Source: Vicinamibacterales bacterium
Lineage (GTDB): Bacteria > Acidobacteriota > Vicinamibacteria > Vicinamibacterales > UBA8438
Length of the DNA stretch: 36,027 bases
NCBI GenBank assembly: GCA_029940535.1
Contig: JAPYUM010000027.1
Location: 9,732-45,758 of the forward strand
Direction of reading: 5' to 3'
The notes beneath the pieces were generated by a model. It worked only from the letters and a program-made list of their open reading frames with translations. It had not been told where the DNA came from and searched no databases. Each line of letters starts with the position of its first letter. Position 1 is the first letter of the stretch. The position numbers were made by a program, and so were the translations under genes. Below, one piece after another: positions 3,247 to 23,582 of the stretch.

Positions 3247-5319
3247 CTAGTCGAGATCCAGCTCCGCTCGCGACAACCGGTTGGACATCACCGTTTCGGT
3301 GGCGAGAAACCCGAGCGCCCCGATCAGGAGATACCACCACAGGGTTTGACGACGCTCCAGATCTTCCGGCCGTATCTCGCGCTCTTCCCCGATGGCCCGA
3401 TCGCCCGCCGCACGACCGGTGACAATCGCCACCAACTCCTGTGGATCGACCTGTTCCAGATTCGATTCGGCGAGGTCGACGTTGACCGCCACCAGCACCG
3501 GCTCGGTGTCTCCCGCGTCGGTGTCGCGAATTTCGTAGAAGCCCTGCTCCTGCAGACCGATAAACCCGGGCCGACCGTCGCTCCCCGCCTCGACGCGGTC
3601 TTCGGACGGATCGCGCACCACGAGGTTGGGACTCGACAAGTCGAGTTCCGACGCACCGGGATACGCTGACAGGTCGAGCACCTGCCCGGCGGTCAGCGCC
3701 GAGGTTGGCGCGGTGTAGTCGGCCAAATACTCCACCGCCCTGTGTACGAACGGCAGATAGATCCCGTTGCGGGCGAAATCGTTCCAGAAGGTGTCGAGGG
3801 TCGAGGTCCAGACCAACACCCGCCCCTCGCCGAACCGATGCTCCGCCATCGCGGCATCACCGTTGTCGAACCGAGCGAGGACCGATGTTTCGGGACCGAC
3901 ACTCAGAGGCCGATAGCGGAAGAAACGCGGCGCCGTGAGGTCGCCACTGCGTGGGGTGCTGAACGCAGCGAACACCGGATGGCTGTAATCGACGAAGCCC
4001 AGCGAACCGCCGCGACCGTCACGATCGGCCGGTCCGTCAATCGGTCCGGGCAACAGATCGAGGTTGTCGCCGGGCCAGCGCACGCCTTCACCCAACGCAA
4101 TCCACAAGCCACCGCCGGCCTCGACGAACCGGGTGATGGCCGCACCGATCGGCCCGTCGGGGAGCCCGACGTCATTCAACACCACGACCCCGGCCGCCGT
4201 CACATCAGCGGCCGTGACCTGGTTGACCGCTCGCTCGGTGACGGCGAACGAGGGGCTCGTTCCAATCGCCAGAGCCTGTCGCACATACAGATTGCCCTCT
4301 GCGCCCGCGGTGCCCGGTTTACCGACAATCAACACCGGCACGATGTCGCCAGGCGCGACGGTGAAGTGGTACACGTCGTCCTGCGGCAACCGGTCCGTGG
4401 CGGCCCGCACAGAGATCGGCATCGCCGAGTCCTCGAGCGTGAACGGGTCGAAGGTCACCGTGGCCGGGCCATTCGCCTCTATCGAGACTCGCAACGACTG
4501 CAGTTCGCGGCCGTTCAACTCGAGCGACACGAGCAGGCCTTCGACCGGCTCGTTCCCACGGTTAGCCAACCGCGCCGTCACCGTGGCTCGCTCGCGCTCC
4601 GCAAACAGATCGCGCTGCACCGAAGCGCCGGCCACGCTGATATTCGGGGTCGGGTCGTCGTCGGCCACCGAGACCGGTGTCAGCACGGTGCCGGGCGGCA
4701 AGAGAATGCTGCCGGCACTGTCGACCCCCACACGTTGAAAATCGCTGATGAGCACGACCTCGAGCAGGGGTTGGTCCGAGTCTTCGAGAATCCCCTGGGC
4801 CAGTTGCAGGGCGGGACCGTATCGCGTGGTCCCGGTGCTCAGCTCGACGTCATCGATCGCCGCCAGCAAACTCGCGCGATCCGTGGTCGACCGTGTGCTC
4901 GATTCGGCTCCACTGTCGAAAAAGACGACCGTGGCCTCGTCGTCCGCAGCCAGATCACGCACCACCCCGCGGGCGATGTCTCGCGCCTCCTCCCAGCGAC
5001 CACCGTAGCCCATGCTGTAGGAACGGTCGACCAGCACCACGACCTCGCGCGAGCCGCCGGTCACCGCCGCCAGCGCGGTCGAACGGAGGAAGGGACGCGC
5101 GAACGCCGCGATGAGCAACACCAGGGCGGCGCATCGCATGAGCAATAGCAGCCAATGACGGACGCGCTGGCGTCGGAGGGAATGAAACGGGATCCGGCGA
5201 ACGAACATCAGCGACGGGAACTCGACCACCTCGGTCCGCTGGCGCTGAATCATGTGAATCAGCACCGGCACCCCGAGGGCCGCAATCGCCGCGAAGAACA
5301 GTGGGGCCAGAAAAGACAT
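3247..5319 (-). CDS. BatA-domain / von Willebrand factor A membrane protein
   Basis: The protein has 690 residues. It begins with the BatA-type double-membrane N-terminus: a TM segment at about 4-22, a basic linker with the typical EFPSLMF stretch, and a second TM at about 56-74. A vWA domain follows, with the metal-binding MIDAS motif D98-R-S-Y-S102. The middle and C-terminal parts are beta-rich and resemble a glutamine-amidotransferase-like fold. A last TM lies near residues 660-678. The vWA domain should face the outside or the membrane surface and bind a divalent metal with a partner protein. I chose the ATG at 5319, which overlaps the DUF58 stop as TGATG, over the TTG one codon upstream; this indicates translational coupling. 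BatA proteins work with MoxR ATPases in envelope or stress functions. The exact role here is unknown. Confidence 0.88.
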   Translation of the reverse strand: MSFLAPLFFAAIAALGVPVLIHMIQRQRTEVVEFPSLMFVRRIPFHSLRRQRVRHWLLLLMRCAALVLLIAAFARPFLRSTALAAVTGGSREVVVLVDRSYSMGYGGRWEEARDIARGVVRDLAADDEATVVFFDSGAESSTRSTTDRASLLAAIDDVELSTGTTRYGPALQLAQGILEDSDQPLLEVVLISDFQRVGVDSAGSILLPPGTVLTPVSVADDDPTPNISVAGASVQRDLFAERERATVTARLANRGNEPVEGLLVSLELNGRELQSLRVSIEANGPATVTFDPFTLEDSAMPISVRAATDRLPQDDVYHFTVAPGDIVPVLIVGKPGTAGAEGNLYVRQALAIGTSPSFAVTERAVNQVTAADVTAAGVVVLNDVGLPDGPIGAAITRFVEAGGGLWIALGEGVRWPGDNLDLLPGPIDGPADRDGRGGSLGFVDYSHPVFAAFSTPRSGDLTAPRFFRYRPLSVGPETSVLARFDNGDAAMAEHRFGEGRVLVWTSTLDTFWNDFARNGIYLPFVHRAVEYLADYTAPTSALTAGQVLDLSAYPGASELDLSSPNLVVRDPSEDRVEAGSDGRPGFIGLQEQGFYEIRDTDAGDTEPVLVAVNVDLAESNLEQVDPQELVAIVTGRAAGDRAIGEEREIRPEDLERRQTLWWYLLIGALGFLATETVMSNRLSRAELDLD

Positions 5320-6233
5320 CAACGCACTTTCGTCATCTTGTGCCGCATGGCGAGATACTTGAACAACGCATGGTCCAGCGGCACCTTGGTGTTCAGGAAG
5401 GCGTAGTCAATACGGTTCCGGCTGAACAGCTGACTCAACGACCGGATGTGGTCCTGCACCAGCGCGCGATACTCGTCCCGCAGCTTGTCCGGCACCACCG
5501 CCATCTTCCGGCCGGTTTCCATATCCTCGAAGCTGCTCGAGTCGTCGTAGGGAAAATCCACCTCGGCCGGGTCGAGGACGTGAAAGACGATCACGTCGTT
5601 GCCGGCGAAACGGAGCGGCTTGATCGCGTCAAGGATCTTCTCCGGCTCCTCGTAGAAGTCGGAGATGACAACCAGGATGCTGCGACGCTTGAAGAACTCC
5701 GTCGCCTTGAAGAGCGGCGGCCCCAGGGCGCCTGGGCGCCCCGCGACGATCTTGTCGAGCGTGTGCAACGTCACGTCGAAATGTTTGGCCGAGGGGGGGA
5801 CGCGTTCGACGATATCGTCGTCAAACGTCACGATGCCGATCCGGTCGCGCTGCCGGCTGCTGAGATAGCTCAAGCAGGCCGCGAGGTAGCGGCCATAGTC
5901 CAGTTTGGTGACGCCCCGGCTGCCAAAGCTCATGGACTTCGACACATCGAACAGCACCGAGAAGTTGGTATTGGTGTCCGCTTCAAACTGCTTGACGTAA
6001 AAGCGGTCCGTCCGCGCATACAGCCGCCAATCGATACGCCGGATGTCGTCCCCCGGCATGTAACCACGGTGCTCGGCGAAGTCTACCGATATACCGAGAT
6101 ACGGAGCCTTGTGCAGCCCGTTGATGAACCCCTCGACCACGAAGCGCGCCGCCAGTTCGAGGCTGCCGATACGCACCAAGACCTTGGGGTCGATGAAGCG
6201 TGCGCCGGGCGAGGCGGTGGCGGCCGTGGACAT
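5319..6233 (-). CDS. DUF58 domain protein with vWA-like metal site
   Basis: The protein has 304 residues and no signal peptide or membrane segment, so it is probably cytoplasmic. The DUF58 signature GDDIRRIDWRLYART is present near residues 61-75. A complete MIDAS-type DVSKS motif follows at 96-100. The rest has the alternating strand/helix pattern of a vWA fold, including FDDDIVERVPP and ISDFYEEPE segments. DUF58 proteins are almost always encoded next to MoxR ATPases and are thought to be their adaptors or clients. Here moxR lies 22 nt upstream and the BatA-like gene overlaps its stop codon. The ATG at 6233 is the natural start. Confidence 0.92.
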   Translation of the reverse strand: MSTAATASPGARFIDPKVLVRIGSLELAARFVVEGFINGLHKAPYLGISVDFAEHRGYMPGDDIRRIDWRLYARTDRFYVKQFEADTNTNFSVLFDVSKSMSFGSRGVTKLDYGRYLAACLSYLSSRQRDRIGIVTFDDDIVERVPPSAKHFDVTLHTLDKIVAGRPGALGPPLFKATEFFKRRSILVVISDFYEEPEKILDAIKPLRFAGNDVIVFHVLDPAEVDFPYDDSSSFEDMETGRKMAVVPDKLRDEYRALVQDHIRSLSQLFSRNRIDYAFLNTKVPLDHALFKYLAMRHKMTKVR

Positions 6234-6255: not shown

Positions 6256-7290
6256 CTACATCTGGGAGGTCGGAACCGGCACGGCCTCGAGCAACTGGTC
6301 GACGATCTGATCGGCGGTGATGCCCTCGGACTCGGCGTGGAAATTGAGCAGCACGCGGTGACGTAGCACCGGGTGCGCCAGCGCGCGAATGTCTTCGAAG
6401 CTGACGTGGTAGCGCCCCTCTGTCAGCGCGCGGGCCTTCCCACCCAGAATCAGATACTGGGCCGCACGGACACTGGCCCCGTAGGCGACCCACTTCTTAA
6501 AGTCGGGCGCGTCGTCCCCCTTCATGCGGCTCGTGCGCACGATGCTCAGGGCGTAGCGCATGACCGCGTCGGACACCGGCACACGCCGCACCAGCCGCTG
6601 GAACCCGACCAGATCGGCTCCCGTCACGGCATGCTTGAACTCCGGCTCCGCGTTGCCGGTCGTGGACCGCACGACCTCGAGTTCCTCGTCTTCCGGCGGG
6701 TGCTCGATCACGATGTGAAACATGAACCGGTCGAGCTGGGCCTCCGGCAACGGGTAGGTGCCTTCGAGCTCGATCGGGTTCTGGGTGGCGAACACGAAGA
6801 ACGGCTCCTCGAGCGTGTAGGTGCGCCCCTGGACGGTGACCCGATGTTCCTGCATCGCCTCAAGCAACGCCGACTGGGTCTTCGGCGGCGTCCGGTTGAT
6901 CTCGTCCGCCAGCAGGACGTTGGTAAACACGGGACCGGGCGCAAACACCATCTTGCGTCCGCCAGTCTCGGCATCCTCCTGAATGATGTCCGTGCCGGTG
7001 ATGTCGGACGGCATGAGGTCCGGCGTGAACTGGATACGGGAGAACTTGAGGTCGAGCACCTGCGCCATCGTCTGGATGAGTAGGGTCTTGGCCAGCCCTG
7101 GCACACCGATGATGAGGCTGTTGCCGCCGACGAACAGCGTCAGCAACGTCTCGTTGATGACCTCCTGCTGGCCAATGATTTTCTTCCGGAGCTCGACGAG
7201 AATCTGCTCGCGTCCGGCCTTCATGTTGTCGGCCAGAGCTATGTCGTCTGGGTTATCCAGGTCGGTCGGTTCTTGTGCGAATGCGTCCAC
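6256..7290 (-). CDS. MoxR-family AAA+ ATPase
   Basis: The protein has 344 residues, normal for MoxR. It shows Walker A GVPGLAKT at about 62-69, Walker B LLADE at 126-130, followed by INRTPPKTQSALLEAMQE, and sensor 1 FATQNP. The C-terminal lid region carries HPVLRHRV. MoxR ATPases form hexameric cytoplasmic machines that act as chaperones for metal-binding vWA proteins. I start it at the GTG at 7290, preceded by GGAG at suitable distance. The frame stays open upstream, but a longer start would run into the DUF4159 gene and add low-complexity sequence. The gene sits between the DUF4159 gene and the DUF58 gene, in line with a single operon. Confidence 0.92.
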   Translation of the reverse strand: MDAFAQEPTDLDNPDDIALADNMKAGREQILVELRKKIIGQQEVINETLLTLFVGGNSLIIGVPGLAKTLLIQTMAQVLDLKFSRIQFTPDLMPSDITGTDIIQEDAETGGRKMVFAPGPVFTNVLLADEINRTPPKTQSALLEAMQEHRVTVQGRTYTLEEPFFVFATQNPIELEGTYPLPEAQLDRFMFHIVIEHPPEDEELEVVRSTTGNAEPEFKHAVTGADLVGFQRLVRRVPVSDAVMRYALSIVRTSRMKGDDAPDFKKWVAYGASVRAAQYLILGGKARALTEGRYHVSFEDIRALAHPVLRHRVLLNFHAESEGITADQIVDQLLEAVPVPTSQM

Positions 7291-7320
7291 GATTCCGCTC
7301 TCCTTGCAGCTTTGCTTCCG

Positions 7321-7335
7321 TGGGGCGCTGCCCCA
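7321..7335. repeat. short perfect hairpin upstream of moxR
   Basis: TGGGGC and GCCCCA form a six-base-pair stem around a three-base loop, about 30 nt before the moxR GTG. It lies in the 128-nt gap between the DUF4159 gene and moxR. It could affect mRNA processing or translation. There is no U-tract, so it is not a standard terminator. Confidence 0.5.
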
Positions 7336-7391
7336 CAACCCCGGCTCGGTCGCTCGCGGGGACCCCGGATACCCCGCTCCGCTTCCTCGCG

Positions 7392-7409
7392 GGCGCGCAT
7401 GTGCGCGCC
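7392..7409. repeat. 18-bp perfect palindrome after the DUF4159 stop codon
   Basis: GGCGCGCA and TGCGCGCC are exact reverse complements with a two-base centre, ten bases downstream of the DUF4159 stop on the minus strand. The RNA hairpin would be very stable. Without a run of U it is a candidate attenuator, processing site or mRNA-stabilising element rather than a full terminator. Confidence 0.5.
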
Positions 7410-7418
7410 GTGCCATCC

Positions 7419-8195
7419 TTAATGTGTCATCGCGTACATGATGTAATTCACGCCAAACTTGAACGACTCGTTCGAGATGTCGATCGGGATCCACCCGGTC
7501 ATGGAAAACTCCCACGACTCGCCGATGTCATTGTTGTGGTTGGCCACGACGATCAACCGGCCATTCGGATTATTGTTCTCAAACAGCCCGAAGAAGATCG
7601 GTATCTCCGGGTATTGCGGCGGATAGTCCAGAGAATCGATATCGAAGAACGAGTGATAGACCGGCATGCTGGCATCGAGTTCGATCCAGTTCAGGTCGGG
7701 CAACACCTTCTTCATCTGGGTTTCCAGGTTGTACCAGTGGTCGTCGGCGTGGAAGTCGTCGAAGATCAGGAACCCGCCCTTCAGCAGATAGTTCCGCAAG
7801 CCCTCCTCTTCCGCCTCCGACAGCGTCCAGTAGCCCGGCTCCGACATGTACGCGAACGGATACTTGAACAGATTTGGATCGTCAAGCATCAAAATGGTGC
7901 CGCCATCCTCACCCAGATACGGATCGATGAGTGTGACCTCGTCGAGAATCCGCATCAAGTTCTGCTCGGCGCGCGGATAGTCATGGGCCCAGGGCAGGTC
8001 CTGTCGATAGAAGAACCCGCCGCCCGCGTATCCGTCGGCATACCGGATGCGGGCGAACACGAAGCGGCCGTCAAAGGCGGCCGGACCGGACACCGGGGCA
8101 GTGTCCGCACGCGCGGTGACCGCCGCCGAGGCGCCGCCCGCCAGCAGCACGGCTAGCAGCAGCCCCGTCGTCAACCGTCGCGTGATGGTCCTCAT
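7419..8195 (-). CDS. DUF4159 domain exported protein (copy 2)
   Basis: The protein has 258 residues. A basic start and the hydrophobic stretch LLLAVLLAGGASAA form a signal peptide. The remainder is a DUF4159 domain, recognisable from RIRYADGYAGGGFFYRQD, the GGFLIFDDFH motif and the family-typical ending NYIMYAMTH. The fold is thought to resemble glutamine amidotransferase/flavodoxin-like domains; no catalytic function is established. The gene begins 11 nt after the caspase-like gene. It is a paralogue of the DUF4159 gene at 11614-12462, with the same organisation and the same YAM-[TS]-H end. The product is expected in the periplasm or attached to the envelope. Confidence 0.9.
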   Translation of the reverse strand: MRTITRRLTTGLLLAVLLAGGASAAVTARADTAPVSGPAAFDGRFVFARIRYADGYAGGGFFYRQDLPWAHDYPRAEQNLMRILDEVTLIDPYLGEDGGTILMLDDPNLFKYPFAYMSEPGYWTLSEAEEEGLRNYLLKGGFLIFDDFHADDHWYNLETQMKKVLPDLNWIELDASMPVYHSFFDIDSLDYPPQYPEIPIFFGLFENNNPNGRLIVVANHNNDIGESWEFSMTGWIPIDISNESFKFGVNYIMYAMTH

Positions 8196-8206: not shown

Positions 8207-9253
8207 CTAGCGCGGCTCGGCCGCGTCCTCTTCCGTGGTTCGGATTTCGCGGGTTTTCAGCGCCATGGCGACGAGCAGTTTTTCCATTTCCGCGTCATAA
8301 CTCGCCGCATCCGTCCCACCGCGAGTCGCGCGGAGCCCTTCGATCTGCTCCTGTAGCAGCAACCGCTCTTCATACAGGGCACGTATCGCGGGGTCATCCG
8401 GCAACCCGGCCAGCCCGGAACCGTCGCCGGTCGTAATGAACAAGCTGCGGGCCATGGCGCCGTCCGTGGTCAACGGGTCGGGCTCGCGTGTCCCCTCGCC
8501 ATCGCCGTTGTCATCGAGCAGGGCATGCTCTGTCTGGAGGCGTCCGTCCGACTCGTAGACACGGGCCACCTGCACCACCGCGTACTCAAACGCTTCGAGC
8601 ATCGAGACGCGTCCGTCCTTGTTCTGGTCGGAGTCCTCTTCGCCGTCCGCGAACGCAGCCACGAAATGGCCGCCGAACACGGTCTCGTTCCACTGACCGC
8701 TGCTGCGGGTAGCCGTCATCACGGTGCGTCCCTCACCCGACAGCGCTTCGATGAATCCACCGCTCGAGGTGGCCGCGTTGACGAACGTGACTCGCTGGGG
8801 GCTCAGCGTGCTGAGGAGGACCGCGTAGTCCCCGGCGGTCAAGTCGCGGCCGGGCAGATTAAAGCGCGACTCGCCGCTGTTGTGGCTCCCGTGTCCGATC
8901 AGCAGCACCAGCACATGGTCGTTCGGCTCGGCCCGCTCGGAGATGTCGGCAAACGCCTGTTCGACGTTCTCCTTGGTCGACCGCCCGTCGATTCGCTCGG
9001 GATCAAGCTCCACCTTTTCAGCCAGGTAGGCAACCTGTTCTGGCGGCACCTCGTAGCGCTCGATCGCGGCGTCAATGAGCGTGGTGGCCCACTCGTGGAA
9101 CTGCTCGGCGTACGCCGGCTCGCCGCTCAACCCGGTGAGCACGAGAATGTGGGTCTGTTGCGCCGCCACGGGCGCAGCGAGCCACGCTGTCGTCGTGACC
9201 GCGACCGCCACCACCCTCGCCCTCATGCGCGTCCGAGCCTGGAGTCGGATCAT
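8207..9253 (-). CDS. exported caspase-like fold protein lacking cysteine, with EF-hand loop
   Basis: The protein has 348 residues. The start is the ATG at 9253, which overlaps the upstream stop as ATGA; a longer frame would lie inside the upstream gene. A signal peptide ends around VAA|QQ (residues 31-32). The core resembles caspase/legumain (clan CD) proteins: beta strand HVLVLLIGHGSH with the conserved Gly-His-Gly (H121), then RVTFVNAATSSGGF at 154-167 where active members have an Ala-Cys dyad. Here the position is Ala-Ala-Thr, and the whole protein has no cysteine, so it cannot be a cysteine protease. A canonical EF-hand loop, DQNKDGRVSMLE, occupies 209-220, and a second partial one (DDNGDGEG) follows near 247. 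The C-terminal part is helical. It is probably a non-proteolytic binding domain of the vWA/MoxR cluster. Confidence 0.75.
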   Translation of the reverse strand: MIRLQARTRMRARVVAVAVTTTAWLAAPVAAQQTHILVLTGLSGEPAYAEQFHEWATTLIDAAIERYEVPPEQVAYLAEKVELDPERIDGRSTKENVEQAFADISERAEPNDHVLVLLIGHGSHNSGESRFNLPGRDLTAGDYAVLLSTLSPQRVTFVNAATSSGGFIEALSGEGRTVMTATRSSGQWNETVFGGHFVAAFADGEEDSDQNKDGRVSMLEAFEYAVVQVARVYESDGRLQTEHALLDDNGDGEGTREPDPLTTDGAMARSLFITTGDGSGLAGLPDDPAIRALYEERLLLQEQIEGLRATRGGTDAASYDAEMEKLLVAMALKTREIRTTEEDAAEPR

Positions 9254-11529
9254 GCGAGTCCTCGCGACCGGCGGTAACCCCACTCGCCGAGAACCAGTAA
9301 CAGAAACAGAAACAGGAAGACCGGCATGTCCCACAGGTCGCGCTCTTCGACCACGGTGACGCCACCCCCGACCGTCTGGATGTCGTCGACGAGGGAGTCG
9401 ACCGTGTCGGTGGTGTAGAACCGGCCGCCAGTCTCTTCGGCCACTCGTTCGAGCAACGGCGCCTGCATGGTGGAGTCGTAGAACTCTGAATCGCTCGGGG
9501 CCACGCGAATATACGCGGTGTCACTCCCCAGTAACTCGCCGTCGCTCGTAGCCTCCATCCGAACCTCGTACAGCCCTTCCTTCCTCGGCACGAAGCTGGA
9601 GACATACTCGCCGTCCCGGTCGGCGGTCCAGTCCATCGGGACTTCGATCAGCTCGTCATCCGGATCCGTGATCCAGGCCGAGACTTGACTGTTGTTGATT
9701 TCTTCGTAGTTGGCGTCGTCGACCTCGGCCCGCAGCGACAACGGTTCGTCGAGCTCGATTTGATCGGTGGGCAAGTCGGCGACCACCTGATCCGGCACCC
9801 CGTCAACCATCCACCGCAACAAGCGACGCCACAGCGTCTCGTGCGTCTGGTCATCAACCGCGATGTCGGCGTGCATCTGCCACATCCACGAATCTTGGAC
9901 GGGGAAGGAGAGGGCCTTGCCGGCTCCGTAGCGCTGAAAAGCGAGCACGACAAAGGATCCGTCGCCACTTTCCAGCAGCTTGGTCGCACCTGGCTTCACC
10001 TCCGTGATCCGATTGACCAGGGTAATCGGGGGCAATTCGAGCCACCGCGCGGCTGAAGCCTCCTCCGTCTCGGCGATCTGGGTGGCCGGATGCGTGGCGC
10101 CGGCGCGGGTCGGCCGCACATCGGTCTCGACGAAGAAACCGTCCTCACCGTCGCCGGCGGTCGGGTTCAGCAGCACCGGCAGCACATCGGCCACCGGCGT
10201 ACCGGCATACCCGCCCTCGGCGTACGACCGCTGGCCGCCGAGCATCAACAAGCTGCCACCCCGTTCGCTGACAAAGTCGGCAATCATCCGAAGCTGGTCG
10301 GGCGTGAAGAAATTCGCCTCGATGCTCCCCAGGATGATCGCGCGGTACTTGAACAGCTCTTCGCGTGTCCGGGGGAATCCGCCGATCAGATCCTCGGCGT
10401 CCTCGACGCCGATCCGCATGAACTTGTTTTCGGCCGTGCGCTGAAGCATGGCGACCTGGAGGTTCTCGTCGTCCTCCACCGCCCGCCCGATGAACTTGAG
10501 CTCCCAACGCGGCTCGCCCTCGAAGTAGAGGATCTTCTCGCGTGTATCCTCGACGACGACCAGGGCGTTCCGCTCGTTGTTCTGGGTGACCATTTCATCC
10601 GGGCGCGGCGACACCCGGAAACTGAACAGACGCGCACCCGCGTCCGCCGCGGTGAACCGTACCCGCACCGTGGCTGGCTCGCCGTCGGCCGGCAACGTCA
10701 CCGCCTGGTCGGCCACGATCCGGCCTTCGTCCTCCACCTGCACGCTGACGGTCTCGCCGGCATATCCGTTCTGCGTCAACAGGATGTCGACCACCAACGC
10801 GGCGCCCTTGAGCACCGATCGTGGCGTGTCCACTCGGCTCAACTGAATGTCGCGACTGTACTCTTCGCGGCCGAGTCCAACCGTGAACACTGGCACCCCC
10901 GCCGCTTCGAGCGGCACGAGCGCATCGGACAGCTCGACCCCGGCGTTGTCAGCGCCGTCGCTCACCACCACCATTCCAGACAGCGGCACCCCGGCCAATT
11001 CCTCGTGGGCGCGGGTCAACGCCTGCCCCAGATGGGTCCGCGTGCCGTCAAAGGCCAGATCGTCGACCGAGGTGATGCGATTGGTGGCGGACGAAAAGCT
11101 GAACAGCCGCAGCGCGAAGCGGTCCGCCAATGCGGTGAGCAGCGGGCTCTCTTCCCCACCGAACTGCTGCGTCACGAAGTCCGCGCGGGACTCACCGTCG
11201 CGGTCGGCGATGGCCATGCTGCGTGAGTCGTCGATCAAGACACCCAGGAAGTTCTGCTGGGCGACCACCTGCGACAGCACGAGCACCGGTCGGAAGAGAC
11301 AGAGCAGCAGGACGGCCAGAATGGTGAGACGCACCCCCGTCAGCACGACGCGATCGAACGGCCGCGTGTTCGCCCGCACCCGTTGATAGGTCTGGAACGT
11401 CACCACGCCGATGGCGACCACGACCACGGCCGCCACAAACGTGGCCGCCGTCGGCCGGAAGGCCAGGGCGCCCTCGTCGAAGACGATCGGACGGTACTTG
11501 AAGAAAAACTCGAACACCGATTCAAACAT
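9250..11529 (-). CDS. membrane-anchored vWA / glutamine amidotransferase-like protein
   Basis: The protein has 759 residues. It has two N-terminal TM segments (about 28-46 and 63-87) and a MIDAS vWA domain with D100-D-S-R-S104 and SDGADN further on. A CARDB- or Ig-like beta region comes next. Then follows a class I glutamine-amidotransferase-like domain, seen in KILYFEGEPRWELKF, ILGSIEANFF and SLLMLGGQRSYAEGGY. A final TM near 735-752 (FLFLFLLLVLG) ends in a basic tail. This architecture is common in MoxR/DUF58 clusters of Acidobacteria and Planctomycetes. The amidotransferase-like part shows no catalytic Cys in the expected place, so it is probably structural. The stop codon overlaps the start of the caspase-like gene, indicating coupled translation. 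Confidence 0.87.
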   Translation of the reverse strand: MFESVFEFFFKYRPIVFDEGALAFRPTAATFVAAVVVVAIGVVTFQTYQRVRANTRPFDRVVLTGVRLTILAVLLLCLFRPVLVLSQVVAQQNFLGVLIDDSRSMAIADRDGESRADFVTQQFGGEESPLLTALADRFALRLFSFSSATNRITSVDDLAFDGTRTHLGQALTRAHEELAGVPLSGMVVVSDGADNAGVELSDALVPLEAAGVPVFTVGLGREEYSRDIQLSRVDTPRSVLKGAALVVDILLTQNGYAGETVSVQVEDEGRIVADQAVTLPADGEPATVRVRFTAADAGARLFSFRVSPRPDEMVTQNNERNALVVVEDTREKILYFEGEPRWELKFIGRAVEDDENLQVAMLQRTAENKFMRIGVEDAEDLIGGFPRTREELFKYRAIILGSIEANFFTPDQLRMIADFVSERGGSLLMLGGQRSYAEGGYAGTPVADVLPVLLNPTAGDGEDGFFVETDVRPTRAGATHPATQIAETEEASAARWLELPPITLVNRITEVKPGATKLLESGDGSFVVLAFQRYGAGKALSFPVQDSWMWQMHADIAVDDQTHETLWRRLLRWMVDGVPDQVVADLPTDQIELDEPLSLRAEVDDANYEEINNSQVSAWITDPDDELIEVPMDWTADRDGEYVSSFVPRKEGLYEVRMEATSDGELLGSDTAYIRVAPSDSEFYDSTMQAPLLERVAEETGGRFYTTDTVDSLVDDIQTVGGGVTVVEERDLWDMPVFLFLFLLLVLGEWGYRRSRGLA

Positions 11530-11613: not shown

Positions 11614-12462
11614 TTAATGACTCATCGCGTAGACGATGATGTTTACGGTTATTTCTATCGCGTACGTCGAGTACCTCAATGGATAGTATGGGCTTTCGGC
11701 CCACTCCCATGCATCGCCGATGTCCGTATTCCAGTTGATGACCACCATCAACCGGCCGGTTTCGTCGAAAATTCCCTTCACCTGCGCTTCGTAGCCGTCA
11801 CGCTCCCAGGTCGGTCCCCCCTGCGCGTTGCCGATGGACGGAACCTGAACGATCTCCTCAATGTTATAGACGGTGTTGAATATCGGATGGTTGAGGGATA
11901 AATCCACGATTGGGTATTCAGGCAACACTCGCTTGATCTCGGCCTCGAAATTCTGCCACTCGTAGGTGCCCCAGAAATCGTCGATCATCAAGAACCCGCC
12001 GGCCAGCAGATACTCGCGGAGCCCTTTGACTTCCGCCTCGGTCATGTACATGTTCCCGACCTCCAGCGCGTAGAGGAACGGAAATCGGCGCACGGCCGGA
12101 TCGTCGAGTTGGATGGCGTTCTCCATCTCGTAGGCATCCATGTCGATCAGACGGTCGAGGATGGTCAAGAACTGGCGATCGGCTTTGGGGAAATCTGTGG
12201 CCCAGGCGCCCCAGCGCCGACCACCACCGTTGTAGATAGCGCGGGTGAAGAAGAACTCCCGCGCATTGGCGCTTGGATTCTTGAGCGTCGGACGAATGTC
12301 TTCGCGCCGAAAAGTGGGTCGGCGTTGGGCGGCCACCGGGCCGGCGGCTCGGGAGCCCAGAACCGGGAGCTCCGTGGGTTCCGTCGGCCACGCCGCGCCC
12401 CCTCCGGCACCCATGAGTGCCGTCGCGATCACGCCCGCGCGGACGAAGAACCGTGGCCGCAA
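11614..12462 (-). CDS. DUF4159 domain exported protein (copy 1)
   Basis: The protein has 282 residues and starts at a TTG at 12462 with a GGGAG ribosome site eight bases upstream. The N-terminus is basic then hydrophobic and probably serves as a signal sequence or membrane anchor, followed by a linker. The DUF4159 domain covers most of the rest: TRAIYNGGGRRWGAWATDFP, then GGFLMIDDFWG, and the ending NIIVYAMSH. It is probably the first gene of the vWA/MoxR cluster: 84 nt separate it from the large vWA gene, and 206 nt lie between it and the cytochrome gene upstream. No promoter stands out in that gap. Confidence 0.87.
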   Translation of the reverse strand: MRPRFFVRAGVIATALMGAGGGAAWPTEPTELPVLGSRAAGPVAAQRRPTFRREDIRPTLKNPSANAREFFFTRAIYNGGGRRWGAWATDFPKADRQFLTILDRLIDMDAYEMENAIQLDDPAVRRFPFLYALEVGNMYMTEAEVKGLREYLLAGGFLMIDDFWGTYEWQNFEAEIKRVLPEYPIVDLSLNHPIFNTVYNIEEIVQVPSIGNAQGGPTWERDGYEAQVKGIFDETGRLMVVINWNTDIGDAWEWAESPYYPLRYSTYAIEITVNIIVYAMSH

Positions 12463-15917: not shown

Positions 15918-18900
15918 TCAGACCCGCATCAACACGGACCGGGCTGGCTCACCGGTGGCTCGAGCCACCATGTGCGCATACAGCTGAACCTGGCGGCGAT
16001 ACACGGCGAGCGTCTGCCCCAACTCTCGGTCGGTCTTGAAGTCGACGACGACCCAGGTGCCGTCCTGCTTGAACGCCAGGTCGACGATGCCCTCGACGAG
16101 CAGCCCATCGTCGTGTTGCATGGTGACCGGCGTCTCCCGGCGGCATTCCCCCACAGCGAGAGCCTGACGGGCCGCTACCAACAGAGGATGCGCCAGGGCC
16201 GCGGCCACCGACCTCGCGGCGGCGGTCATCTCGGCATCGTCGGCACCAAGGAGCCGACCTTCGAGCCCCGTGACCCCGCTCACTTGTTCGGCCGTCGCGT
16301 CGAGTGGAGTCACGGCCAGAACCGCGTGCACCAGGGCGCCGAAACGACGCCCGGACGGGCGGTCAGGATCGACAGGCGGCCGGCCGACATCCTCCAGCGT
16401 GACCGATTCGACGAGCTCCACCACTTCCACGTCGTCTACATCCGGTGGTGCCGGCTCGCCGTCGGCGACGAGACGCTGGGCCAGCTCGGTCACGGTGCGG
16501 ACGCGCAAACTGGGCACTTCCGCCGTGATGACGGTCTGGTCACGTTGGTCGCGCCAGACACGGTACCGGGTCAGGTCTGCCTCGACCACCGCCGGTGGCG
16601 TCTCTTTCGACAACAGTTCCGCCTGGCGGATGCCGAACTTGGCCTCGACACCCAACCGCAGCGTCGGCGAATTGGGGTCCCACCAGACGACCTCGTAGCC
16701 GATCGACGGACCGGTCTGCTCAGCCGCCGCCGCGGCACCATCGTCGGCGTCCGGGGACGGTTTGTCCTGAAAGGGCAGCACCTTCGCCCTGCCGGAGATG
16801 TCCGGCTTGAATGAATAAAGACCAGGGGCCACGGTGTCGGGCCGGGCCGGGTCGCCGTCGGGCCGGTCGACCACGCTGTCACGACCGAACGCCGGGCAGC
16901 CCGGAGCGGCCGCCGGGTCGCGCCGTACCGCCACCGGCGGATAGATCGCCTCATCGAGCGGTCCCAGCCACCCCCCCTGGAATGGCCCGTCGCCAACCGC
17001 CGGCACGACCAACAGGTCACGCGCGCGCGTCGCCGCCACATAGGCCAGTCGGATCCCTTCCTGGCGGTCGCGTTCGACTTCGATGTCTTCGTGGTCGAGC
17101 AGGTCAAGGGGTGCCCAGCCCGCCAGTCGGAGGGCACACAGCCGACGGTCCGGATCGAGAAAGCGCCCGGCGGTTTTTCTGTGCAGCTTGCACGTCGGGT
17201 CGGCCAGGATCACCACCGGAAACTCGAGGCCCTTGGCCCGATGCACCGTCATGAGACGGACCCCGTCGCTGCCCTCCTCGAGAATCGGGGCCTCGCCAGC
17301 CTGGCGCACCTGCGCTTCGTCTTCGAGCTGTTCCACAAACCCCCGAAATGACAACCCGCCGCTGGCCTCATAGCGACGTGCCATTTCGGCAATCTGCATG
17401 ACGTTGGCCAGCGCTTGCTCACCGCCGGGGCGCATCACGAAGCCAGCATGGGCTCGAGTGACTTCGAGCAAGCCGCCGATGGTCTCCGCCACCGGCACCT
17501 CATTCCGATGGCGGTGCGCCTTGCGCAGGACCTCCAGCGCCTCGACGATCGGGCCCAGGCGGGTGTGAGCCGGATCCTGCTCGCGGTTGACGGTCGCAGA
17601 CGCATGGTCATTACGCAACTCGGCCGGAATCCGAAACGGGTGAAGCCGGTGGAACCGCTGGTGATATTCCAGCAGGGCCGCATCGTCGATGGAAAACAAC
17701 GAGCCACGCAACGTGGCGAACACCGACAACTCGTCGTCCGGATACTCGACGGCCGACAGCGCGGCCCGCATCGTCGTGACCTCCTCCCGGTCGTGGAAGG
17801 TACGTCCGCCGATCAGGAGATGCGGCAGCTCGCGCGCCTCGAGCGCCTCGACATAGCCACGGGTCATGTCGGTGCCAAAGCTCTCGAACCGGCGGAACAG
17901 GAGACAGACGTGACGCGCGGCGACCGGAACCAGGGTCGTCGTCGACCCCGATCCGGCGTTGGCGTCAACGTCATCCTCCGGCACGCGCTCGGTCACCTGC
18001 CATCCACTCTCGTTCACCAGCCAACTCACGAAGGCCCCGACCGCGTCGGGGAGCGACCGTTCGATCGCGGACGCCGCCATGCGACGCACACCATAGGGAC
18101 GCGGTACCGGAAGGACCACCAAGCTCGGCTGACCGGTCATCTCGCTGCGATGCGGCGACAGCGGCACATACTCCGCCTGCGGCGAAGCGGGCTGAGCGGA
18201 TCTCCGGGACATCAGCGGTGAGAAGGCGTGGTTGACCAGCCGTTGAATCGACGGCACCGCGCGGAAACTCGTGGTCAACGCGAGCGACGCGATGCCGCGG
18301 TCGACCAGTTGTGTCTTGACCTGTTCATACACGCCGACATCGGCACGCCGGAAGCGGTAGACCGACTGTTTGGGGTCACCGACGATAAACAGCTTCCCCG
18401 GTGTCGGCCGGACACGCCGCCAGTCCTGCTGGGTCGCGTCATCGGCCGCCAGCAGCAACAGGATCTCTGCCTGCAATGGGTCGGTGTCCTGGAACTCATC
18501 GACAAAGATGTGCGTGAAGCGCCGCTGGAAGTCGGCCCGAACCGACGCGTGGTCGCGCACCAGATCTCGCGCCTGCAGGAGCAGATCGACGAAGTCGAGC
18601 CGTCCGGCATCCCGTTTGAGACCGTCGTATGCCTTGATAGGAGCCCAGAGCTCCGCCTGTAACAGGGCCGCCAGGTCGGCGTCGGCAACGCGTCGGAAAT
18701 TTTGCAGCACCTCGGCGATCTTGCGATGCTGCTCCAGGACGGTGGCGCGAGTGATGCCGTCGCCATAGTTGGCCCCTGACCCGCTCCGTGGATTCGCGAA
18801 GTCACGATTCGCCGCCAACTCGACGAGCGAAGCTTCGATGCCGTCGTAGTCGCGCCGGCGGGGACGCACGTCGTCGTGGGTCTGGATGGCCCGCGCGGTC

Positions 18901-19649
18901 AACAGTGCCGGCCGAACATCGAGATACAGCCGATCGCTTCGACGATTCGACACGCGGTCGGCTAGTTCGGCGAAATCGATCAGGTGGGCGACGATCTGGT
19001 CGATGACCACCTTTCGTTCGAACGTCTCCCGACGCCACGCGGTCGGAAAGTCTCGCCACTCGCTCAGATCCGCTGCCGCTTTCTTCAGCCGTTCGGTCGG
19101 CCGTTGCTTGTCTTCCCGGTCGCCGAACCCACCCGCGGTGCGTCGGCGCAAGGCCCGTCGGACCCCGTCGGGCGGGTCGGCCAGCGCGCGCTGGAGCCAA
19201 CCGTCGAACGCCTGGCTGAAGGTGCGCCCCGCGCCGTCCGCCAAGACGTCGAACTGGGGGTCGACGCCGGCCTCCACCGGACGTTCATGGAGCAGGTCGG
19301 CGCAGAATCCGTGGATGGTGCTGACCTGCGCTTCCTCGAGGTGCGCGATGGCGTGCTCGATGTTGGGCCGTTGCCGGTCGATGTCGGCGCCAGCGGCTCC
19401 GTCCGTCAGGTCGTGCCGCGCCTGTTCAAGGCCCTCCCGGAGTCGGAGCTTCAGCTCGCCCGCCGCCTTCTCAGTAAAGGTGACCGCGAGCATCTGGTCG
19501 ACGCGCGCCCGCCCGGTCGCGAGGACGTTGACGATACGAGTTACCAACTCCGTCGTCTTCCCGGTGCCCGCGGCCGCTTCGATCAGCAACGACTCGTCGA
19601 GCGAATGACGAATGCGCTCCCGCTCCGGTGCATCGACGAGTGCAGTCAT
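15918..19649 (-). CDS. addA: AddA/RecB-like UvrD-type helicase-nuclease
   Basis: The protein has 1243 residues. The ATG at 19649 overlaps the addB stop codon (TAATG); upstream extension would lie inside addB. Superfamily 1 helicase motifs are in order: Walker A AAAGTGKT (25-32), [11 protein letters not shown] (Ia), [15 protein letters not shown] from residue 384 (II), [14 protein letters not shown] (III), TTSFR (IV), [14 protein letters not shown] (V) and YVAATRARD (VI). The C-terminus has a RecB-type nuclease domain: [15 protein letters not shown] and D1203-FKTD, then QVQLYAHM. It should unwind and resect double-strand breaks together with AddB before RecA loading. The AddA rather than RecB name rests on the AddB partner and the absence of recC and recD. 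Confidence 0.88.
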
Positions 19650-22600
19650 TACGGCAGCCGGCGCAAGACCTCTAGGTCGGCCAGTTTGGTCGAGTCTTTG
19701 CGCTTCACTCGGGTTTCCTCCCAGGGACCACACACCGGGCGGAAATCACACCACGTGCAGGCTCCTTGGCGGGGGGCTGGCAGCACGACGCCGGTCTCGA
19801 TCGCGCGGTCGACGATCTCCAGCACCTCCAGGCCGTGCCGACGCTCCGTCTCGCCCAACGACACGGACCGGCTGACGTAGCCGCCGGCGACCGTCGAAAA
19901 GAACAGCCGTGACTCTTTCACCGGACGACCCAGCGCCTGCTCGACCACGAGCCCATAGAGCACCGGTTGCAGCACCTCGCCGCGCCCGACGATCATCCGA
20001 TCGCGGGTGCGATTCTTCCCGGTCTTGTAGTCTGTGACCCGGAGCTCGCCCTCCGCGGTCGGTCGCCCCCGCGCCTCGACGAGATCGACGATGCCGTGCA
20101 GCTTCCACTTCCCATCGATGACGGCCGGCTCGGCCAGGCTGCGTGGGTCGCGCCCAGGCCCAGAAGGGAAACCGAACCCCAGCTCGGCCCGCACGGGCAC
20201 CCACTCTCCCTCTTCGTTCGCGACGTGGTGGACCCAGCCCTTGAGGTCGGTGCGCATCGCTTCCACCTCGTCGGTCCAGACCCGGTCGATGGCAGGGGCC
20301 AGATCTTCGCGATACCGCGCGGCCAGCCGATCGAGCGTGTCGTCGAGGAGCGTCTCCGTATCGGCGAGCCGGTCGCGGGTCAACGGCAGCGCGTCGCGCG
20401 CTTCCAGTGCCCGCACGAGCTCGGCCTGGACTTCGTGAAACATCCGACCGCGAGTCAGCGGGTCGAGCCGCTCCAGCGACTCAATCTCATCACGCGGGTG
20501 CAAGCGGAAGATGGTGGACAGCAGAAACTGATACGGACACATGGCAAACCGTTGGAGGGCCGACACCGAGTAGGGACGAGCCGACAATCGGTGCTGGTCG
20601 AGCGCGTCGCGCGCCGGCGGGTCGGGCCGGTAGATACCGTCGTACTTCGTCCAGGCGGGCATCCACCGGGCCCAACGTGTCAAGAGCGAGCGCCGGAGAC
20701 CGCGATTCAATTGCAGCAGATACCGGGCTCGCCCGGTCAGATCGGGTGACACCCGGCGACGCAGGAGCGGACCGAGAACCGACAGGTCGTGCTCGGTGTC
20801 GTCGATGGCCAGGTCGGGGTCGGGAGGCGCCGGCCACGCCAGCCGCGCACCGACACGGGCGAACGCCTGCCGTTCGGTCATGGCAAAGTCAGGGACATGT
20901 CCGGTCCGGGCGCGCTCCAGGTCCAGCGCGTAGAAGGACGGCACACCGGGGCGTGAATCGCCAAGCTGGAGCCGTGGATATGACAGATACAGCTGTCGTG
21001 TCGCGGCCCCGACGGCCAATCGCAGGAGCAGACGCTCGTGGGCCGCCCGATCGTCAAGCAACCGCAGGCCGACGCGCTCGCCAGGGATGTCGTCGCTCGA
21101 TACCTGCGACGGCGATGCCGCGTGGTTCAGAACGCGGCGGTGATCGTCAAGCAGCAGTGGATCTTGGCGCTGCTTCTGCGGGAAGACCCGCTCGGCCAGT
21201 CCGGGCACGAACACCACGTCGAAGACACGTCCCCGGACGTGTTCTGGGGCCCCGACGAAGACACGTCCATACCGCTGAGACGGCGGCTCTTCCTGGAGCT
21301 GGGTGAGACGTTCGGCCAGCACGTTCTGTACTTCTGCGAGCGGAACCGGGCCGACCCCGGCCATCGGTCTGAGCTCGCCGAGCACCGCCAGAACCCTGTC
21401 CGGCCTCTCGAGCACCATCGGGACCAACGCCTCGAGTCGGTCGAGCCACTCGCCCCAGGTGGCCTCACCCGGGAACCCACCAAGTCGGTCGATGACCGGC
21501 AAGGCGAATCGGCGCAGGTGGCCCAGATTGATCAGATCGCTCTCGAGCCGGCTTACCCGCGAGGAGTGGGGATCCTCTCGTTGCTGCGACTGGAGGCGAA
21601 GCTCCAGTTCCCGCTCGAGCCCGGTCAACCGTCGAGCCCAACGGTCGTGCCCGCCGATGACGGCAGATTCGACGAGCAGACGGTCCCAGCGCCATGGGGC
21701 ACGGAGGGTCCCATCGACCACCGGCTGTTGGTCGCCATCCTCGATCGGGTCGGATGCGGAGGCGGTCAACGGCTCCGCCTTCGCGAGATCGAACAACGAC
21801 GGCTGTTCCGGCCGCACCCGAGCCGGGAGGAGCTGGTCACCGTCGTCGGGCGGCACCCATCGCCCGCGGTCAAGCGGCGGGGCCCCGGCGGAGTCGGGCC
21901 GCGGCACCTGCCCGAGCGACAGGTACTCCGAAAACCGCCGCGCGGACAGTCGCTCGGCCGCGCAAGCCAGTAGCGCGAGAAACGCGCGACCAGTGGGGTC
22001 TGGGGCACGGGTGCCGCGAACGAACCACGCCTCGACGCCGGCCCGGCGCAGGGCTGTTTCCAGGAGCGCGGCGTAGATCTGGGGGGCCCGCAGCACCACC
22101 GCCATCTTGTCCAACGGAATCCCGCGACGCGCCTGCTCGTGCACCGCGCGCGCGATCTCCACACATTCACGCGTCTCTCCTGGCGCGGAAAACAACGACA
22201 CGTCGGGCTCGTCAGTGTGATCGGGCCGGTCCTCATCGCCGGATCGGTCGCCTGCGTCCGGCACGCTCGCCACCGCCGCGATCGGCTCAAAGAGCCGCTG
22301 TCGCACGCGGGCGAGCGGACCGGCTTTGGACGGCGAGGTCTCATCTGGCTCGATGAGAGTGGACCACCCGGCGAAGGCACCGAGCGTCCGGTCGTCACCA
22401 ACCGGCACCGTGGCCAGGAACCGGTTGGCGCGCCCGGCCAGCGCCCGAACCAGGGTGCGGGTGGCCTCGTCGTGAACCGGCACGTCGACCAGCACCACCG
22501 GCACGTCGAGCCGCAGTCCGCCCGCGGAGTCGGTCTCCAGCATGCCCGCACGGTGCGCGTTGGTGGTCGAAGCAATGGTGCTGGCCGCCAGGCGATACAG

Positions 22601-23110
22601 GCCCGGCATGTCGATCAGCCGGGCTTGCTCGAGGTGTTGCCCGTAGCGAGCGGCGAGCAACTCCAGGTCGCCGCCCACGACGCCACATTGGTCCAGGCGG
22701 TCCGTGTCGACATCACTGAGCCGCAACTCGTCAAGTGTCGAGGCCAGCGTGCGCCCGAAGCTCCGCAGACGGGCAATTGGCGACACGTAGGACAGCGTGC
22801 CCTGCTCCAGCTCGTCGAAGGCGGCGCGCGCGGCAACCGCTTCGGCCCCCAGCCGCGTGGATGGCGCCAGACCCCGCTCGGCGAGGTGGGTCGCGGTCAC
22901 TCGAACCGCGAGCTGCCGCAGGCTGAAGCGATGCAGACCGAAGGTGGCGCCGCGGCGCACGGACTGCTCACGGACCAGGTCGTCGACCGCTTCCCGCGTC
23001 GCGCCGACCACCAGGGCCTCAGTCGCCGGCGAGAGCGCATCCAGAAAGCGGTGTGCGGCGGCCAGTCGAGTTGCCGCGGCGGCGGACCGATGAAGCGTGA
23101 CGTGGCCCAT
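19649..23110 (-). CDS. addB: AddB-like PD-(D/E)XK nuclease subunit with Fe-S cysteines
   Basis: The protein has 1153 residues from the ATG at 23110. The frame is open further upstream, but that part overlaps the pspC gene on the other strand. The N-terminal half is an inactivated helicase-like region: no Walker A motif is visible. The C-terminal nuclease domain has [10 protein letters not shown] and D1027-YKTG. Four cysteines in the AddB iron-sulfur arrangement are present: C858 ([10 protein letters not shown]) and C1118-x2-C1121-x5-C1127 ([10 protein letters not shown]). Together with AddA it should process double-strand breaks, cutting one strand while AddA cuts the other. The order addB-addA with overlapping stop/start codons is as in many bacteria. 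Confidence 0.85.
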
Positions 23111-23231
23111 GTGAGAGAGAAGCGGAGGCAGCCGGGACCTGCGCCGGTCGATGCTACCACGCGGCACGAGACACGGTTGGGGAACTGTTGCTCCGGTCCA
23201 CCCGTAGTGGAATAGCGAAGGAGTTTCTGTC

Positions 23232-23582
23232 ATGGACTGTAGACGCTGTATGCGGGAGATCGATGCCGACGCAGCCTTCTGCGCCTTCTGCGGTGCCAGC
23301 CAACGGGCAACTGGCGACACGCCCTTCGCGAGCAAACGGCTGGAGCGCTCGATCTCCGATCGGCGGCTGGCGGGGGTGTGCGGCGGCCTGGCCGTGTACT
23401 TCGAGGTCGACTCCACACCGGTCCGGCTGCTCTGGGTCGTGCTGTCGATCTGCCCTGGTGCGATCATCGGCGGGGTCGTCGCCTACGGCGTGGCCTGGCT
23501 GGTGATGCCGGTGGCGAACCGTCCGGTCGTGCCGGAGACTCCGCCCACGCCACCGCAGGCCCCAGCGGCCGAATCGGCCTGA
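23232..23582 (+). CDS. PspC domain protein with N-terminal zinc ribbon
   Basis: The protein has 116 residues and is the only complete gene on the plus strand besides the GGDEF gene. AAGGAG lies at good distance before the ATG. The N-terminus is a zinc ribbon with two CxxC pairs: CRRC at residues 3-6 and CAFC. The PspC domain starts near residue 37 with the classic RSISDRRLAGVCGGLAVYF, followed by one long TM region (about 65-93) and a Pro/Ala tail. PspC proteins sense envelope stress or modulate membrane integrity. This short zinc-ribbon form is widespread outside enterobacteria and not part of a psp operon. It is divergent to addB, with 121 nt between the two starts. Confidence 0.93.
   Translation: MDCRRCMREIDADAAFCAFCGASQRATGDTPFASKRLERSISDRRLAGVCGGLAVYFEVDSTPVRLLWVVLSICPGAIIGGVVAYGVAWLVMPVANRPVVPETPPTPPQAPAAESA

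Follow-up and report, generated by a model that had tools for sequence, protein, structure and literature searches.

The gene on the minus strand at positions 8207-9253 of the window, the whole 36,027-nucleotide stretch that was analysed, encodes a probably exported protein with a legumain-like (family C13) predicted fold of protease clan CD and without the catalytic cysteine. We propose, with a probability of roughly 60%, that this protein, here called pseudo-legumain, is a secreted pseudo-protease that serves a MoxR/Bat (vWA) membrane assembly as a non-catalytic subunit with a binding or scaffold role outside the cytoplasm. It belongs to an ancient, operon-locked family found in two phyla, and living relatives that still bear the cysteine pin the lost residue to one alignment column. 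The family opens to test which role a clan CD fold takes on once it no longer cuts, as well as which extracytoplasmic ligands the little-understood Bat/MoxR assemblies have.

Translation from 9253 to 8207 gives a protein of 348 aa that starts MIRLQARTRMRARVV and contains no cysteine, as the initial annotation had said without giving the strand. At a cysteine frequency of 0.7%, about 9% of proteins of this length would be cysteine-free by chance, so the absence over the whole protein was set aside as the main signal. While the cysteine-free state is unremarkable for one protein, it is remarkable across the family, where the mature region lacks any cysteine in 133 of 139 relatives. The N-terminus, MIRLQARTRMRARVVAVAVTTTAWLAAPVAAQQ, was judged by eye to be a probable Sec signal peptide (approximately residues 1-32, ending AAPVAAQQ; 9158..9253, on the minus strand like all features of the gene and operon given here), and the AlphaFold2 model has a low-confidence helix at residues 9-24. 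The Gly120-His121-Gly122 motif (8888..8896), which aligns with the catalytic His motif of the Cys-bearing relatives described below, and the strand FVNAATSSGGF (residues 157-167; 8753..8785), which both a gapless alignment with those relatives and an alignment with metacaspase-4 place where the catalytic Cys is expected, were found where the initial annotation had put them, with VNAATSSGG at residues 158-166; the same is true of the EF-hand-type loop at residues 209-220. A second acidic DxNxDG motif, DDNGDG (residues 247-252; 8498..8515), is less conserved in the alignment, and a C-terminal helical hairpin (residues 288-345; 8219..8392) lies outside the legumain core in the model.

Sequence profiles place the protein near legumains at the edge of detection. 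The Pfam model for C13 (PF01650) gave 20.0 bits, below its cut-off of 22.8, while four homologues in related genomes exceed the cut-off with 24.5-31.4 bits, and 30 of 65 relatives match at E<=1e-3; NCBIfam returned no name for the protein. A PDB search with the single sequence had no reliable match, and a profile of 20 sequences was needed to reach plant metacaspase-4 (E=1.8e-7). The AlphaFold2 model, built with 65 natural sequences, has a mean pLDDT of 86.5. Legumains rank first when Foldseek is run on it (E 6e-9), and VIA-align superposes it on prolegumain 4nol with a Z of 21.9 over 205 residues at 2.4 A, on metacaspase-4 with a Z of 20.6 and on PIGK, the catalytic subunit of GPI transamidase, with a Z of 19.2. 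By Z, legumain and metacaspase-4 are almost level, with the top ranks filled by legumains. On this predicted structure, clan CD identity is well supported, and the nearest modelled fold is that of legumain and family C13 rather than caspase. The description of the protein as caspase-like in the initial annotation holds at the level of the clan, but a caspase is not its closest counterpart.

The fold shared with legumains, or asparaginyl endopeptidases, and with PIGK/GPI8 spans residues 31-283 (Z up to 21.9), and the VIA alignments stop at about residue 283. Pseudo-legumain resembles these enzymes in its His-Gly motif, in the Ser-Gly that follows the Cys position and in its predicted export, but it has no nucleophile, is only about 8-15% identical in the structural alignments, and carries the additional C-terminal helical hairpin and EF-type loop. 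Judged against what defines a peptidase of family C13 or clan CD, the alpha-beta fold (in the predicted model) and the His-Gly motif are present, whereas the core strand that follows does not end in a catalytic Cys and the PF01650 score stays below gathering level, and the protein should not be classed as a peptidase. Annotation by a weak C13 score would mislabel members of the family as such.

Conservation was counted over 139 distinct intact relatives from Acidobacteriota and Gemmatimonadota. Not one has a Cys at the catalytic site, while Gly120 and Ser164 are invariant (139/139 each) and His121 is kept in 138. Residue 162 is Ser in 95, Thr in 18, Ala in 10, Glu in 7, Gly in 7 and Pro in 2, within a site consensus of N-[TA]-[AST]-[STAGEP]-[AS]-S; the Ala-Ala-Thr whose conservation the initial annotation had proposed to examine is not conserved as such, and Thr162 is the residue at the Cys position. 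Deep members of the family, taken from whole genomes, likewise lack Cys at 162, and two of them (L195 and L197) read GHA instead of GHG. The single relative with Asn for His, reading GNG, is from Acidobacteria bacterium RIFCSPLOWO2_12_FULL_66_21 (L142). Two deep Acidobacteriota proteins have a Cys at 163, adjoining the lost nucleophile: L200 5905-6927 (NGTSCSG) and L202 6004-7176 (NATNCSG).

The same phylum holds four C13 relatives that bear the Cys (L185, L186, L191 and L203). L185 and L203 score 34.8 and 36.1 bits against C13, clearly above the cut-off, and L186 has a partial match at 25.3 bits. Across the site these proteins align with pseudo-legumain without a gap (QMKQCFSGGF against VNAATSSGGF), which identifies the lost Cys as residue 162 (8768-8770) and makes Ser164-Gly165 part of an inherited Cys-x-Ser-Gly motif. 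The Cys-bearing proteins share the core and the EF-type loop with pseudo-legumain and carry Asp-His-Gly and Gln-Cys-x-Ser/Gly-Gly-Phe motifs; they differ in keeping the Cys and in being multidomain proteins of about 590-750 aa, with L191 and L203 cut by contig ends. No Bat or MoxR neighbours of their genes were detected within the short stretches examined. L186 (719-2959) and L191 have an insert between the core and the EF-type loop, and DUF7910/fascin-like repeats at the C terminus. A query with L186 turned up few additional Cys-bearing relatives, with some matches only to its unrelated C-terminal domain. Among the low-scoring matches in the phylum, from which the four Cys-bearing relatives also came, three long proteins (L187, L188 and L189) with a Cys-bearing caspase-like domain are only distantly similar and were rejected as true C13 relatives, as was L190, which gave a partial alignment without a clear site.

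In a maximum-likelihood tree the four Cys-bearing sequences split from all the Cys-less ones with an SH-aLRT of 99, but on long branches. The simplest reading is a single loss of the nucleophile at the base of the family, before it spread through Acidobacteriota and Gemmatimonadota. Pairwise dN/dS is 0.05-0.11 within the genus and family, and pseudo-legumain is under strong purifying selection. Catalytic death of the family is well supported. The initial annotation had called the protein a pseudo-protease or a calcium-responsive binding domain and had named, as outcomes that would speak against this, a structure without the clan CD fold or relatives that mostly keep the Cys; the predicted structure has the fold and none of the 139 relatives kept the residue, so the pseudo-protease designation stands.

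A comparable loss at the level of a family has been described in bacterial clan CD proteins. Pseudo-orthocaspases are C14 proteins of cyanobacteria and Alphaproteobacteria in which Tyr-Ser usually replaces the His-Cys dyad (PMC6426788). Pseudo-legumain differs from these C14 p20 proteins in keeping the His, in being C13-like and probably exported, and in being locked to an operon; with the His retained, and no match to C14 (PF00656) in the window's whole genome, it was ruled out as a pseudo-orthocaspase. The study of these proteins (PMC6426788) makes no reference to Acidobacteria. Our literature search, which left subscription journals mostly outside its reach, found nothing on bacterial C13 pseudo-proteases or on dead caspase folds in Acidobacteria, no paper describing a Cys-less C13-like family in a Bat-type operon, and none mentioning DUF4159, a domain of two neighbouring proteins. 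Pseudo-proteases are a known kind, and with no paper found, a C13-like, His-keeping, probably exported family fixed in a Bat operon appears undescribed.

The EF-hand-type loop DQNKDGRVSMLE (residues 209-220; 8594..8629) has ligand residues at positions 1, 3, 5, 9 and 12 of its 12-residue sequence, and these are nearly invariant among the relatives: D209 139/139, D/N211 139/139, D/N213 138/139, S217 139/139 and E220 139/139. The 12-mer pattern matches only once in pseudo-legumain. A strict PROSITE-like 13-mer occurs in 0.17% of shuffled sequences, and pseudo-legumain itself does not match it; the protein departs from PROSITE PS00018 because residue 13, hydrophobic in that pattern, is Ala221, and 2 of the 139 relatives match the pattern. 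In the AlphaFold2 model, helices 193-202 and 218-235 flank the loop, with a six-residue, lower-confidence linker before it. The same loop occurs in the Cys-bearing relatives outside the operon, as DTNNDGRISIVE in L186 illustrates; it therefore arose before the Cys was lost and was not recruited together with the vWA/MoxR cluster, contrary to the recruitment that the initial annotation had suggested. We infer from the sequence that the loop is a putative structural Ca2+ site.

The loop could instead be a sensor, with Ca2+ switching the pseudo-protease between states and gating the MoxR/Bat assembly. Conservation of every ligand position and the helix-loop-helix arrangement in the model are in keeping with this idea, and several clan CD enzymes, including metacaspases and RgpB, require Ca2+ (PMC4357240). 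However, the loop is found equally in the Cys-bearing relatives outside the operon, suggesting a structural site; six residues lie between the loop and the helix before it, and Ala at residue 13 departs from PROSITE PS00018. Extracytoplasmic Ca2+ is also usually high enough to saturate EF-type sites. We regard a sensor role as unlikely.

Conservation at the former active site raises a different question, namely whether the protein is still an enzyme, with Ser/Thr162 or Ser164 acting together with His121 as a serine/threonine hydrolase or acyl-transferase on a legumain fold. His121 and Ser164 are conserved as described above, and since 113 of the 139 relatives carry Ser or Thr at residue 162, weak Ser/Thr activity is formally possible. 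Yet Ala, Glu, Gly or Pro occupy residue 162 in 26 of 139, across both paralogue groups, the His motif is altered in the two GHA members and in the GNG relative, and Ser164 is conserved already in the Cys-bearing relatives (CFSGGF), indicating that it was inherited from Cys-x-Ser-Gly. Retained catalysis is given only a slim chance here.

Pseudo-legumain is encoded in an operon that Pfam assignments resolve in the order DUF4159 protein b (11614..12462), a BatB-like membrane vWA protein of 759 aa (9250..11529), pseudo-legumain, DUF4159 protein a (7419..8195), a MoxR AAA+ ATPase (6256..7515), a DUF58 vWA protein (5319..6233) and a BatA-type membrane vWA protein (3247..5322). The listed GTG start of MoxR is probably too far upstream because it overlaps the gene for DUF4159 protein a. 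The ATG of pseudo-legumain at 9253 shares 4 bp with the end of the BatB-like gene upstream, including its stop codon (ATGA on the minus strand, 9250-9253), as expected for translational coupling. MoxR, DUF58, BatA and a second vWA membrane protein, the set that defines a Bat operon, are found together and in order; relative to a Bat operon, the operon described here adds the two DUF4159 proteins and pseudo-legumain. The full order recurs in about 80 named loci of Acidobacteriota and Gemmatimonadota, read as far as the contigs extend. Deep Acidobacteriota preserve the operon too, some with a gene for a TPR and peptidase-MA (HExxH) protein after pseudo-legumain and before the DUF4159/MoxR genes (L195 7090-9537; L192 3803-5998); this gene is absent from the window's operon, and Gemmatimonadota loci have a gap of similar size. 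Among sampled genomes of the phylum, whose relatedness keeps a Fisher test from giving a fair probability, 113 of 396 have strong matches to the pseudo-legumain family and all 113 have DUF4159, while 13 of the 126 genomes with DUF4159 lack the pseudo-legumain gene, so either the system can run without pseudo-legumain or those assemblies are incomplete. The strict linkage of pseudo-legumain to the operon is well supported, and the tie to a vWA/MoxR cluster drawn in the initial annotation is borne out.

MoxR and vWA neighbours also characterize MoxR-vWA conflict systems, where some 70% of the caspase effector domains have lost their activity and where inactive caspase domains fused to vWA have been reported (PMC7159879). 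An inactive effector of such a defence system would account for a dead caspase-superfamily domain beside MoxR and vWA proteins with precedent in the same study, and PADLOC gave a weak caspase match of 18.5 bits, along with only a weak bpMoxR score for MoxR. No third core component (VMAP, iSTAND, FtsH or beta-propeller) was found among seven operon proteins searched with Pfam and six with PADLOC, however, nor was a variable effector found in the operon. Whereas the dead caspase domains of PMC7159879 are vWA-fused, variable effectors accompanied by VMAP, pseudo-legumain is a constant, separate and probably exported protein without vWA fusion, in a fixed gene order with no swapping. We consider a defence role very improbable. 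Decay of one isolated gene copy, or a likeness to clan CD that arose by chance without relationship, could be read into the sub-threshold Pfam score of the window protein alone, but is refuted by the 139 intact relatives, the low dN/dS and the fold match, and we give it practically no credence.

Returning to the scaffold reading, we hypothesize that pseudo-legumain is exported by Sec and that the EF-type and DxNxDG loops, as judged from their residues, would hold Ca2+ and stabilize its fold. The former substrate cleft, where the His motif, Ser164, Arg176 and the 180-191 loop are conserved, may bind a peptide, a protein segment or a partner subunit. Docking to periplasmic parts of BatA and BatB could run through its C-terminal hairpin together with both Cys-less DUF4159 proteins, and cytosolic MoxR with DUF58 may supply ATP-driven remodelling, by analogy with NorQ/NorD, a well-studied case in which a MoxR ATPase and a vWA protein remodel partners (PMC13036017). 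These placements follow a predicted orientation and membrane topology of the operon proteins. A periplasmic complex has been proposed for Bat proteins, and deletion of the bat genes in Leptospira biflexa gave no phenotype (PMC3557215), so the Bat assembly is without a settled function.

Several extracytoplasmic domains of the operon look like abandoned hydrolases. The model of DUF4159 protein a (pLDDT 85.7) has a glutamine-amidotransferase-like fold, with a Z of 22.7 to 4i66 and of 9.4 to HisH-type structures, and no Cys, and it is likely a second class of pseudoenzyme in the operon. DUF4159 protein b is also Cys-free, and in the BatB-like protein the GATase1-like domain spans residues 377-575, with Cys77 the sole Cys of the protein. 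A tentative picture, which we hold with less than even confidence, is that the operon encodes an ATP-driven envelope machine whose extracytoplasmic side consists largely of abolished hydrolases, with MoxR and the vWA proteins reading or remodelling their ligands. The abolished hydrolases would, just as tentatively, be pseudo-legumain, the two Cys-less amidotransferase-fold DUF4159 proteins and the Cys-less GATase1-like domain.

Paralogues with at most about 40% identity form a separate group within the bacterial order of the window, and their genes adjoin that of a different BatB-like protein. One such paralogue, a second pseudo-legumain, is present in the window's own genome (L039 3000-10942, contig C25), in a cluster of DUF4175, BatB-like, pseudo-legumain and FHA-GAF-SpoIIE phosphatase genes. 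Elsewhere in the window, two adjacent long genes at 15918-23467, encoding 1271 and 1272 aa, resemble by eye an AddA/AddB helicase-nuclease pair.
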